Shown here: one piece after another, positions 13,936 to 28,554 of the stretch | How the letters are laid out: each line of letters opens with the position of its first letter | Position numbering within the stretch: position 1 is the stretch's first letter | DNA from: a virus | DNA: 28,785 bases | Direction: 5' to 3' (one strand) | Virus record (IMG/VR): IMGVR_UViG_3300020396_000028 | Coordinates: 1 to 28,785 of that record | Notes under the pieces: model-generated | The model's database searches: none | Seen by the model: the letters and a program-made list of their open reading frames with translations, nothing else | Told to the model about the DNA's origin: nothing | Made by a program: the position numbers and the translations under genes

Positions 13936-14363
13936 TCAAATTTTATGTTTTCATTAGGTAATGGAATATCTACATTAAAGAATTCCTTAATAAAATCTCT
14001 GCATTGCTTATGGAATACCTCTTGATCATGTGTGTTGTTTTCTGTGGTAGACTTTGGCGCTTTAATTATTTTATTGTCGTTTGTTACAATCTCGTATTGT
14101 AGGAAGTGCATTTTATAAAAGTCGTGTGCTTTCTCTCTATCCCAATGCTCTCCCCATTCATCTGCTATAGCTTGGATGGTTACTGGTATAATTACTGCCC
14201 AGTAGTAAGAGTTCTGGCTTATGGATCTATTCTTTTTTTTAAGCCTTATAACTATCTCAATGATTTTGCCTTCAAAGTTCTTTAGAGCTTTAACAACGCT
14301 TTGGTTTTCGTTAAGCCTTCCGTTTTTAACTTTGTTAGTTATTGTTACAGACTTCATGCGCAT
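13932..14363 (-). CDS. NinB/Orf-like recombination-associated protein
   Basis: This 143-aa protein begins MRMKSVTITNKVKNGRLNEN. Its middle has IVIRLKKKNRSISQNSYYWA followed by VIIPVTIQAIADEWGEHWDR, and the end has HKQCRDFIKEFFNVDIPLPN. The 'R(S/T).(S)QN.YYW..V' element with a following helical region is typical of lambda NinB (Orf), a single-strand DNA-binding recombination mediator, and length fits that family. It lies in a cluster with a DUF1064-type nuclease-like gene and a methyltransferase, as NinB does in many phages. The family call is by eye. A related DNA-binding hypothetical is the alternative. Confidence 0.55.
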   Translation of the reverse strand: MRMKSVTITNKVKNGRLNENQSVVKALKNFEGKIIEIVIRLKKKNRSISQNSYYWAVIIPVTIQAIADEWGEHWDREKAHDFYKMHFLQYEIVTNDNKIIKAPKSTTENNTHDQEVFHKQCRDFIKEFFNVDIPLPNENIKFE

Positions 14364-14584
14364 AAAGTATTTACGTGATAAAAATAATTGTCACGTCTTT
14401 TTTTCCATAATTTGATTTCGTCAAGTATTTTATTTGTTTTTATTTTTGTCAATTTAACTTCGATTATATATTCGTATAACGATTCAATAATTCTATCGCA
14501 GTAAGCAATCTCATTTTCATAATTAATTATTCTTCGGTTAGCTTCTTCTAACCTAATTATGAGCTTTTTACTAGATTTAATCAT
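14354..14584 (-). CDS. 76-aa coiled-coil small protein
   Basis: I chose the internal ATG at 14584 (MIKSSKKLIIRLEEANRRII), which follows the stop of the upstream 28-aa ORF closely. A longer start at 14623 would add 13 residues and overlap that ORF by 35 nt. The protein is nearly all predicted coiled coil (NYENEIAYCDRIIESLYEYI, then EVKLTKIKTNKILDEIKLWK) and ends in KRRDNYFYHVNTLCA. It overlaps the NinB-like gene by 10 nt. No family is recognised. Confidence 0.5.
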   Translation of the reverse strand: MIKSSKKLIIRLEEANRRIINYENEIAYCDRIIESLYEYIIEVKLTKIKTNKILDEIKLWKKRRDNYFYHVNTLCA

Positions 14585-14588
14585 TGGT

Positions 14589-14675
14589 CTAATAATTATC
14601 TGTAAATGATTTGTAGATAGCATAAAAAAACATTCCTATAGCTAAGGCAAAAATTAAATAATCGATTGCTGTCAT
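14589..14675 (-). CDS. 28-aa single-TM micro-protein
   Basis: The ORF reads MTAIDYLIFALAIGMFFYAI followed by YKSFTDNY. Residues 5-21 form one hydrophobic segment, so it would be a tiny inner-membrane peptide. Its ATG overlaps the TGA that closes the DUF1064 reading frame downstream of the hairpin, which suggests the DUF1064 C-terminal part is still translated to that stop. No function is known. Confidence 0.45.
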   Translation of the reverse strand: MTAIDYLIFALAIGMFFYAIYKSFTDNY

Positions 14676-14785
14676 TTTACTAATACTAGTTTTGCGCCTG
14701 GCTCAAGTTCTTCAAGTAGTGCTTCGGTTAATTTCCATTTAAGTCTCCAGATAGTTTTGTCCCCCCTACTAAAAAGTAAAGGGGA
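14672..14785 (-). pseudogene. Downstream in-frame C-terminal part of the DUF1064-like gene
   Basis: After the TAG at 14788-14786 the same frame continues with 11 codons (SPLLFSRGDKT), then ATC TGG AGA CTT, and reads IWRLKWKLTEALLEELEPGA followed by KLVLVK to TGA at 14674-14672. IWRLKWKL is what a DUF1064 C-terminus looks like after GFETP. The downstream part is intact, has no own start codon, and its stop overlaps the next ATG. It may be translated by readthrough or ribosome bypassing, or be the remnant of a broken gene. I label it pseudogene only because no start is available. Confidence 0.6.
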
Positions 14786-14786
14786 C
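14759..14786 (-). repeat. 12-bp stem hairpin inside the DUF1064-like gene
   Basis: The minus strand reads GTCCCCTTTACT-TTTT-AGTAGGGGGGAC: all 12 positions pair, two as G-U. The stem begins at the G of the TAG stop. It is followed by ACAAAAC, not a T-tract, so it does not look like a standard terminator. The 42-nt segment 14751-14792 carrying it is flanked by CTAT on both sides. Confidence 0.75.
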
Positions 14787-15058
14787 TAAGCAATAGGGGT
14801 TTCAAACCCCTTAACTTCTATTAGCTCGACAGTTCCATCGGCTAGGGTTATCTTAAAATCCATGAAGTAATTACAGATTTTTTTTCCGTTTACATATAAG
14901 CGGAGGGGGTACTGTGGAATAATTTCTGTAATTTCGCCAGCAAGCTCTCTCATGTGTAGCTCCATAGCGTAAGCAGCTTCTTTCTTGCTGTGATATGATC
15001 TGCCATTGTAAGTTTGCTTGACAGCTCCGTACTTATTTTGATATCTTTTCTTAAACAA
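14786..15058 (-). CDS. DUF1064-like endonuclease fold protein, upstream part ending at TAG
   Basis: This 90-aa frame begins MFKKRYQNKYGAVKQTYNGR and contains YHSKKEAAYAMELHMRELAG, ending ...ELIEVKGFETPIA. Glu27, Asp67 and the Glu81-Val-Lys83 pair fit a PD-(D/E)XK nuclease-type core, as in DUF1064. The family normally continues with a 'WRLK' helix after EVKGFETP, here found only beyond the TAG (see the next two entries). It could be a truncated protein, a pseudogene or a recoded gene. It is the first gene after the terminator at 15205-15233 and the AT-rich intergenic region. Start choice: the only in-frame ATG before the conserved part. Confidence 0.72.
   Translation of the reverse strand: MFKKRYQNKYGAVKQTYNGRSYHSKKEAAYAMELHMRELAGEITEIIPQYPLRLYVNGKKICNYFMDFKITLADGTVELIEVKGFETPIA
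14795..14811. repeat. Perfect 8-bp inverted repeat just upstream of the stop
   Basis: AGGGGTTT-c-AAACCCCT lies in the codons for KGFETP, with a 1-nt centre, and ends 8 nt before the large hairpin begins. It may form a second structure or cruciform, or compete for the CCCC/GGGG strands of the downstream hairpin. Confidence 0.55.
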
Positions 15059-15083
15059 AGTTTGGTTGTTTGCATAAAACTAA

Positions 15084-15123
15084 ACAATTTATTACACAAA
15101 TACAACAATTTGTAATACAATTT
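15084..15123. promoter_or_regulatory. AT-rich cluster of AAATTGT repeats and an inverted repeat
   Basis: ACAATTT occurs three times on the plus strand, at 15084-15090, 15105-15111 and 15117-15123. ATTACA (15091) and TGTAAT (15111-15116) form an inverted repeat across a 14-nt spacer. The block sits 25 nt upstream of the DUF1064-like start, between the end of the replication operon and the next operon. It could be an operator, promoter region or origin-type repeat. No perfect Bacteroidetes promoter was found here. Confidence 0.4.
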
Positions 15124-15153
15124 AATAAAAAACCTTTAAATATTTTAGAGTTA

Positions 15154-15173
15154 CAACCTCTTGACTATTTTTT
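15154..15173. repeat. Direct repeat copy 1 (CAACCTCTTGACTATTTTTT)
   Basis: An identical 20-nt copy lies at 15252-15271, 98 nt away, on either side of the terminator. The second copy covers the stop of the upstream gene. The pair may be a trace of a local duplication. Confidence 0.7.
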
Positions 15174-15204
15174 AATGCTGCTATAAATGGGTGCAAGTAG
15201 AAAT

Positions 15205-15233
15205 AAAAAAAGGAACTACATTTTTGTAATTCC
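15205..15233 (-). terminator. Rho-independent terminator of the early/replication operon
   Basis: On the minus strand GGAATTACA-AAAA-TGTAGTTCC pairs over 9 positions (one G-U) and is followed by TTTTTTT (15211-15205). It lies 29 nt after the stop of the last replication gene at 15263. This is the clearest terminator in the window and would separate early from following genes. Confidence 0.8.
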
Positions 15234-15251
15234 CTTCTTAAAAAATATTAG

Positions 15252-15271
15252 CAACCTCTTGACTATTTTTT
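15252..15271. repeat. Direct repeat copy 2 (CAACCTCTTGACTATTTTTT)
   Basis: The second copy of the 20-nt repeat overlaps the last codons and stop (TAG, 15265-15263) of the helicase-loader-like gene. Copy 1 is at 15154-15173. Confidence 0.7.
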
Positions 15272-15775
15272 TATGTAATGCTTACGCCTCATGTTATTGC
15301 TAAAGTTAAACGTGTCATCGCTTTGCCTATCGTTGTGTACTTGCTGAGACATCCTAGAAGCTTCGTCATAGCGTTCTTCTAAGTACGACCTAAAGAACTT
15401 TAGTATCTTATCAATGCCTAAACGTTCGTAGAACTCTCCGTAAGAGCCAGAAATAATACGTTTAAACAAAAGAGTCAAGTCTGATATTTTAAGCATGTAG
15501 AACTCTTCTACAATCATTCCAGCGCATAGTCTGACTTGTTCCTCGCTCATTGGCTTGTTAAGGTTTAAAATGTTGTTTAAATAAACTAGCCAAACCATTA
15601 CAAAATTAACTGTAAACTCTTTGCTTTGATCTCTTTTAAAACTTGCTAGGCTTGGTGCTTTAGAGTTTATTGCGTCTGCGACTGTAATCATCTTACTAGC
15701 ATGACTCATGCAGTTAGAAGGGTTGTAATTTTGTAACAACTTCTTGGAGGAAGTCTTCTGAATACTGCTGTCCAT
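15263..15775 (-). CDS. Putative replication accessory (helicase loader-like) protein
   Basis: This protein (170 aa from the ATG at 15775) has the run KKLLQNYNPSNCMSHASKMI, then FTVNFVMVWLVYLNNILNLN and MSEEQVRLCAGMIVEEFYML, followed by KISDLTLLFKRIISGSYGEF and YERLGIDKILKFFRSYLEER. I recognise this 'D(L/I)TLLF+RI+SG.YG.FYE.L....I..FF..Y.ER' pattern from Bacteroidetes mobile elements (DUF6633-like). It is found beside replication initiators, so helicase loading is a reasonable inference. Alternative starts are 15799 (86-nt overlap with the upstream gene) and 15709 (almost none). I prefer 15775 because it keeps the LLQNYNPSNC segment. It is followed by the operon terminator. Confidence 0.6.
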   Translation of the reverse strand: MDSSIQKTSSKKLLQNYNPSNCMSHASKMITVADAINSKAPSLASFKRDQSKEFTVNFVMVWLVYLNNILNLNKPMSEEQVRLCAGMIVEEFYMLKISDLTLLFKRIISGSYGEFYERLGIDKILKFFRSYLEERYDEASRMSQQVHNDRQSDDTFNFSNNMRRKHYIKK

Positions 15776-16442
15776 TTTTACTATTTTTCTTGCTTCCATT
15801 TGTCATCTGTTTTTCTGGGTAGATTCCTTTCCACCCCTTTGCCATTGCGTTGTTAATTGAGTCTATTGCGTGTTGTTCGCTTGTAGTCTTGTTGCCTAGT
15901 TGTGTAAGTGCTGCTTGTTCGCTGTGAATAGTTTTGTAATTAAAACCAAGCTCTAAGCGTTTGTACTGTTTCCAATTAGCCCAAGCGATGTCAAAGTTTT
16001 CTGTTTGATAAGGCTTTACAGCTTCTACTTTAACTTCTACTTCTATCTTCTTTTTTCTATCTTCATTCTTCATACTTCTATCTTCAATCTTCAATGAAGA
16101 CCTTTTTTTGGTTATCGTTTGGGTTTTAGGTCGTCCTCCTTTTTGTCCATTAAGTCGTTGTTTTTCTTTATAAGACTTAAGTTGTTTAAAAGACTCCATT
16201 AAACGAGAATTAAAGAAGTAGTCTCCATTATCATCAAACTTTTCTTTTATCATTTCTGGTAGGTTATCCCACTCAAAACCCACCAATAAGGCTAGCCTTT
16301 TTTTGGGTATTCCTTTTTCATCAAATATTGCCCATTGTCTAGCTAAAAGGGTTATGTATAAGCCACGTTCATCCATAGTTAGATCCATAACCCCAGTCAG
16401 AAAATCTTGAGCATAAAATTGAAATGCTGGTGCTTTAGGCAT
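15714..16442 (-). CDS. DUF1376-like replication initiator/primosomal protein
   Basis: This 242-aa protein starts MPKAPAFQFYAQDFLTGVMD, then LTMDERGLYITLLARQWAIF, the typical DUF1376/winged-helix N-terminus with 'F.FY..D(F/W)...M....RG.YI.LL..QW'. A basic linker follows (GQKGGRPKTQTITKKRSSLK). The C-terminal domain has FDIAWANWKQYKRLELGFNY and INNAMAKGWKGIYPEKQMTN, a 'S(I)...A...GW.GI(Y/F)P' end typical of DnaD-like phage replisome organisers. It likely binds origin DNA and recruits the helicase loader encoded next door. It overlaps the DnaA-like gene upstream by 8 nt. Confidence 0.7.
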   Translation of the reverse strand: MPKAPAFQFYAQDFLTGVMDLTMDERGLYITLLARQWAIFDEKGIPKKRLALLVGFEWDNLPEMIKEKFDDNGDYFFNSRLMESFKQLKSYKEKQRLNGQKGGRPKTQTITKKRSSLKIEDRSMKNEDRKKKIEVEVKVEAVKPYQTENFDIAWANWKQYKRLELGFNYKTIHSEQAALTQLGNKTTSEQHAIDSINNAMAKGWKGIYPEKQMTNGSKKNSKNGQQYSEDFLQEVVTKLQPF

Positions 16443-28496: not shown

Positions 28497-28531
28497 AAAA
28501 AAAAGGAGCTATCCGTTAAGATAACCCCTTT
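28497..28531 (-). terminator. Rho-independent terminator after the tail-tube-like gene
   Basis: On the minus strand AAAGGGGTTATC-TTAACG-GATAGCTCCTTT pairs over 12 positions (two G-U) and is followed by eight Ts in total. It lies 24 nt after the stop of the partial gene at 28555 and before the next gene at 28455. It would separate the tail-tube transcript from the portal/fibre operon, or act as a partial attenuator. Confidence 0.75.
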
Positions 28532-28554
28532 AATCAATCAAAAAAACAAACTTT

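Follow-up and report, generated by a model that had tools for sequence, protein, structure and literature searches.

We identified a DUF1064 nuclease gene that, in one phage lineage, is interrupted by a 42-nt hairpin-forming insert carrying an in-frame TAG stop codon. In the reading that we consider likely, this palindrome-forming insertion ends the protein at residue 90, and the nuclease is probably inactive or crippled. The gene lies in a fragment of the virus record IMGVR_UViG_3300020396_000028, referred to here as the window (the whole 28,785 nt that were analysed), which has a G+C content of 33% and carries nearly all of its genes on the minus strand.

An interrupted DUF1064 gene

The gene and its parts are located as follows.
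15058-14672, minus strand: DUF1064 (PD-(D/E)XK-type nuclease) gene, full frame with the insert, from a TTG start to a TGA end
14786-15058, minus strand: open part before the stop, 90 codons plus TAG, matching PF06356 and PHROG 190
14786-14788, minus strand: in-frame TAG stop, by direct reading
14672-14752, minus strand: conserved C-terminal part, IWRLKWKLTEALLEELEPGAKLVLVK-TGA, stranded past the stop, from the alignment of relatives

The 90-residue part matches Pfam PF06356 (DUF1064) at E=3.7e-12, with 47.1 bits against a curated cut-off of 24.7, and PHROG 190 (Holliday junction resolvase) at E=8.6e-20, bearing out the DUF1064 identity given in the original prediction, which had been made from the letters of the sequence. 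An earlier sequence analysis placed DUF1064 in the PD-(D/E)XK nuclease superfamily (PMC1189080). The start codon at 15058 is TTG, and the aligned position in relatives is TTG or GTG. On the minus strand the frame reads EVKGFETPIA-TAG, passes through 11 sense codons and continues in the same frame as IWRLKWKL...LVLVK-TGA; past the TAG, a part that includes the stretch LTEALLEELEPGAK, it is free of stops until the TGA at 14672-14674. On re-reading, the frame, the in-frame TAG, the 42-nt length and both inverted repeats were as first described.

The next gene in the window, a short hydrophobic ORF, begins at 14675. Its ATG overlaps the stop codon of the DUF1064 gene as ATGA (14672-14675, minus strand), an arrangement found in nearly all of the 16 relatives inspected (L003-L040) that persists even where the following gene differs between them. 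This overlap suggests translational coupling at a point of gene exchange.

The insert, its hairpin and the neighboring palindrome

The insert brings with it, or lies beside, several repeats.
14753-14794, minus strand: 42-nt insert (ATT GCT TAG ... ACT), without counterpart in relatives except the same phage
14759-14786, minus strand: hairpin GTCCCCTTTACT-TTTT-AGTAGGGGGGAC, 12 bp of which two are G-U, TTTT loop, first base the G of TAG
14795-14811, minus strand: perfect 8-bp palindrome AGGGGTTT-G-AAACCCCT in the GFETP codons, not in relatives
14793-14796, minus strand: CTAT repeat, upstream copy, spanning the ATT Ile codon, by direct reading
14751-14754, minus strand: CTAT repeat, downstream copy, spanning the ATC Ile codon, by direct reading

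The 12-bp hairpin, which had been noted as starting at the G of TAG, proved to be the top fold of the window. At -20.1 kcal/mol it surpasses in stability every other 34-nt RNA fold on both strands, the next reaching -15.3. Folding of the 111-nt region gives a z-score of -3.3, and 1 of 200 shuffles was equally stable. The second strongest hairpin of the window, AAAGGGGTTATCTTAACGGATAGCTCCTTTTT at 28500-28533 on the minus strand, resembles an intrinsic terminator.

The perfect palindrome sits 8 nt 5' of the hairpin. In L003, the nearest insert-free relative at about 88% DNA identity, the same 17 bases read AAGGATTTGAGACAGAT, so that 6 of 17 differ, against 12% genome-wide, and the changes complete pairing around an older core, TTTGAAA. 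The CTAT repeats are compatible with a duplication upon insertion into an ancestral ACC-CCT-ATC-TGG. These repeats and the pair of Ile codons, both pointed out originally, are indeed present, but they amount to one feature and not to two independent ones.

One hairpin arm, CCCCTTTACTT, is over 11 nt and with one mismatch an inverse match to the CCCCTTAACTT region that lies upstream. No second copy of the insert was found in the window at up to three mismatches, and its 22-nt core was found in viral_contigs only in the same phage; a mobile palindromic element was rejected, there being no further copy in either. A known RNA element was likewise rejected, with no Rfam match across 14000-15800 at E up to 1, and a search for similar DNA in annotated phages gave only chance-level matches (best E=3). 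Elsewhere in the window, AAAAAATAGTCAAGAGGTTG occurs twice at about 15150-15270, flanking a terminator-like hairpin (GGGAATTACAAAAATGTAGTTCC plus a T run) between two genes; L003 has AAAAAATAGTCAAGAGGTTG once, beside the same GGGAATTACAAAAATGTAGTTCC hairpin.

Comparison with related loci

Searches with the 90-residue part gathered 50 related viral loci, and a profile search gathered 80. Over all loci, the spacing from GFxT to the following W is two residues in 57 of 58 distinct junctions and sixteen plus a stop in the remaining one, which belongs to the same phage. Among the 50 loci, all but that record read KGFxTxxW with no extra residue. In the comparison of homologues that the original prediction had proposed, relatives read GFET-xx-WRLK uninterrupted, and the 42 nt form an insert specific to this lineage. 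In viral_contigs, spaced pattern scans gave 41 contigs that all have exactly 7 nt between GAxAC and TGG, no match at 18-48 nt, and at 49-79 nt a single match, again the same phage and nothing else. Cellular genomes contributed four DUF1064-like loci, all distant and uninformative. With 57 junctions lacking the insert and one carrying it, the insert is derived and recent.

The sole insert-bearing exception is the IMG/VR contig 3300030390_001097 (L002), in which the insert is identical in sequence and place. Over 8,252 nt it differs from the window at 14 sites (99.83% identity). Two of these fall in the DUF1064 gene and both are synonymous: GCT/GCC at 14972, in the N-terminal part, and GGC/GGT at 14696, 3' of the TAG. 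Presence of the insert in two separate records argues against an assembly error. Hairpins in amplified DNA are prone to artefacts, but an assembly or amplification artefact is very improbable here, as a second IMG/VR record, distinct from the window at 14 other sites, has the same 42 nt at the same place.

A translated comparison of the window with the ORFs of related loci found this conserved 14-aa insertion plus stop, on which dozens of relatives agree, and no other interrupted gene. The remaining long gaps reflected variable proteins of unequal length, and where a stop fell within another alignment it came from a wrong-strand or wrong-frame ORF or a gene end. A single such site in the window argues against an element that recurs and is served by its own decoding machinery. 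In another phage contig (L050:4200-4700), the DUF1064 gene is frameshifted near AAAGCAAAAGG, the cause being a sequencing error or else another natural loss.

Predicted effect on the nuclease fold

A model of L003, here the nearest intact relative, resembles TnsA (1t0f, TM-score 0.63) and VRR_NUC (4qbn, 0.44), with no hit reaching E 0.001. Its last helix (88-104) and strand (108-113) correspond to what is encoded beyond the stop. Truncation would remove W90, K93, W94 and L110 (L003 numbering), which are invariant or nearly so in 26 relatives, the Lys being invariant and the Trp and Leu nearly invariant. The C-terminal helix and strand are present in every relative and, in the model, complete the PD-(D/E)XK core. 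The 90-residue part retains the catalytic residues up to EVK. The complete DUF1064 fold, in which a C-terminal helix and strand follow the (D/E)XK strand, is absent before the TAG and would be present only if the stop were recoded. Normal termination would yield a 90-residue product that is probably unstable or inactive. The gene thus shares sequence, the catalytic ELIEVKG strand and predicted fold with DUF1064/PD-(D/E)XK phage nucleases (PHROG 190, Holliday junction resolvase), but unlike them is broken by a stop after the catalytic strand.

Insertion and probable termination

We infer normal termination, loss of activity and a template-switch-like origin. A short palindrome-forming insertion would have entered the DUF1064 gene in this phage lineage, in the loop that follows the catalytic (D/E)XK strand and precedes the last helix, bringing the in-frame TAG along. 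Ribosomes stopping at this TAG would release a 90-residue protein with the EVK catalytic strand and without the final helix and strand, leaving the 26 codons past the stop as a remnant of the intact gene. Of the explanations initially offered, the best fit is loss of function through a small palindromic insertion, and bypassing fits poorly.

Several observations bear on termination. TAG ends 7 of the 45 genes in the window and is therefore an ordinary stop; ARAGORN found no tRNA, and hence no suppressor, on this record, which may be incomplete. Both points count in favor of termination, and a phage with reassigned TAG or a suppressor was rejected on the same grounds. Restart of translation was also rejected, since there is no in-frame ATG, GTG or TTG from the TAG to the TGG.

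As to origin, the insert may have arisen by a replication template switch or a similar palindrome-forming event, and a template switch is the likeliest origin, on sequence grounds that fall short of proof. Template-switch mutation leaves a footprint of clustered changes by which hairpins arise or become perfect (PMC8794818). As in such quasipalindrome-associated mutations, a new hairpin is accompanied here by clustered changes that perfect a neighboring palindrome near the older core TTTGAAA, and the 17 rewritten nucleotides beside the insert count for the insertion reading. Unlike in those mutations, the source of the arms is traced weakly, some bases of the insert are unmatched, and a 4-nt repeat flanks it. 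By shuffling, the inverse match gives p of about 0.02 for the arm and 0.06 for the whole insert, so a local source for the switch is weakly indicated.

Some features run against insertion followed by termination. The insert length is a multiple of three with a single stop inside, although neither an in-frame length (one in three) nor a single stop (about one in two) is rare by chance, and a palindromic insertion alone would account for the striking hairpin. The downstream frame is intact, and both differences from L002 are synonymous, one of them C-terminal. Normal termination would also break the ATGA overlap by which the next gene is probably coupled.

Alternatives to a probable loss of function

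The best of the recoding alternatives is readthrough, which we nevertheless regard as unlikely. Some readthrough of the TAG would yield a full-length protein with a 14-residue loop insertion (PIAxSPLLFSRGDKTI); the insert preserves the frame, and there is one stop to pass. When the readthrough chain is modelled, the nuclease core retains high confidence, with a pLDDT of about 90 or above over most of it, and the insert forms a disordered low-confidence loop (residues 90-98) ahead of the last helix. Neither polymorphism in the gene changes an amino acid, and the one 3' of the stop may be mild evidence for continued constraint, although it is one site only. The ATGA overlap with the next ATG, near-universal in relatives, would favor ribosomes reaching the true end. 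However, no relative has extra residues at this junction, TAG is an ordinary stop in this phage, and the record holds no suppressor tRNA. Known readthrough stimulators have a spacer between the stop and the structure, which is missing here because the hairpin starts at the stop. Taken as a whole, in-frame recoding, whether by skipping or by reading through the 42-nt hairpin insert, with the full nuclease still made, has in our estimate a low probability.

About equally improbable is a 90-residue protein that works as a variant, the change being adaptive or functionally neutral. The catalytic residues through EVK are kept, the sole N-terminal polymorphism is synonymous, and the insert is common to two records; against this, the C-terminal helix and strand occur in all relatives and complete the PD-(D/E)XK core in the model.

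Slightly less probable again is bypassing of the kind known from T4 gene 60, in which the ribosome would skip the 42 nt to give GFETPI-WRLK, a joined product that would equal the sequence of relatives exactly. In both cases the insert splits a phage gene that relatives have uninterrupted, and the layouts are alike: the stop lies at a strong stem-loop, another stem-loop is found shortly 5' of it, and the gap is of similar size (42 versus 50 nt). We took the requirements of gene 60 from PMC11194080 and PMC5009743. The perfect 8-bp palindrome at 14795-14811 is a 5' stem-loop of the gene 60 type. A Lys-Lys pair (Lys59-Lys60) lies 30 residues before Ala90, the distance given for KKYK of gene 60 (PMC5009743), but it is part of a family motif (NGKKICNY) general in insert-free relatives. 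Take-off in gene 60 occurs at the codon directly 5' of the stop, and the landing codon is a match to it (PMC5009743, PMC11194080). In the present gene GCT precedes the stop, no GCN lies between the TAG and the TGG, and the ATT/ATC pair stands one codon off the stop; take-off from ATT would occur with GCT in the A site in place of the stop. Any insertion with a CTAT repeat would produce this pair. The T4-style bypassing with re-pairing of tRNA-Ile that was proposed at the outset therefore fails on the GCT codon, and its displaced Ile pair is a by-product of CTAT. The stem, starting at the G of TAG, excludes both GCT and ATT. Compared with gene 60, then, the take-off codon lies outside the stem, there is no landing-codon match, the gap is zero-frame, no nascent-peptide signal is specific to the insert, and the joined product is a putative one.

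Mitochondria of Magnusiomyces capitatus contain 81 bypassing inserts across 12 genes (PMC5009743). As there, a short insert interrupts a conserved gene; unlike there, the insert is single, with no others detected in the window, and it sits in a phage with ordinary stop usage. According to a 2016 review, no natural in-frame stop hopping was known (PMC5009743), and in-frame bypassing, if true, would be a first.

Implications

If the product is made, this gene would be the second from a phage, and the first in frame, in which a stem-loop insert is decoded around; the element is compact and lends itself to reporter assays. If it is a plain interruption, the gene would be a clear natural example of a phage nuclease inactivated by a hairpin-forming insertion.
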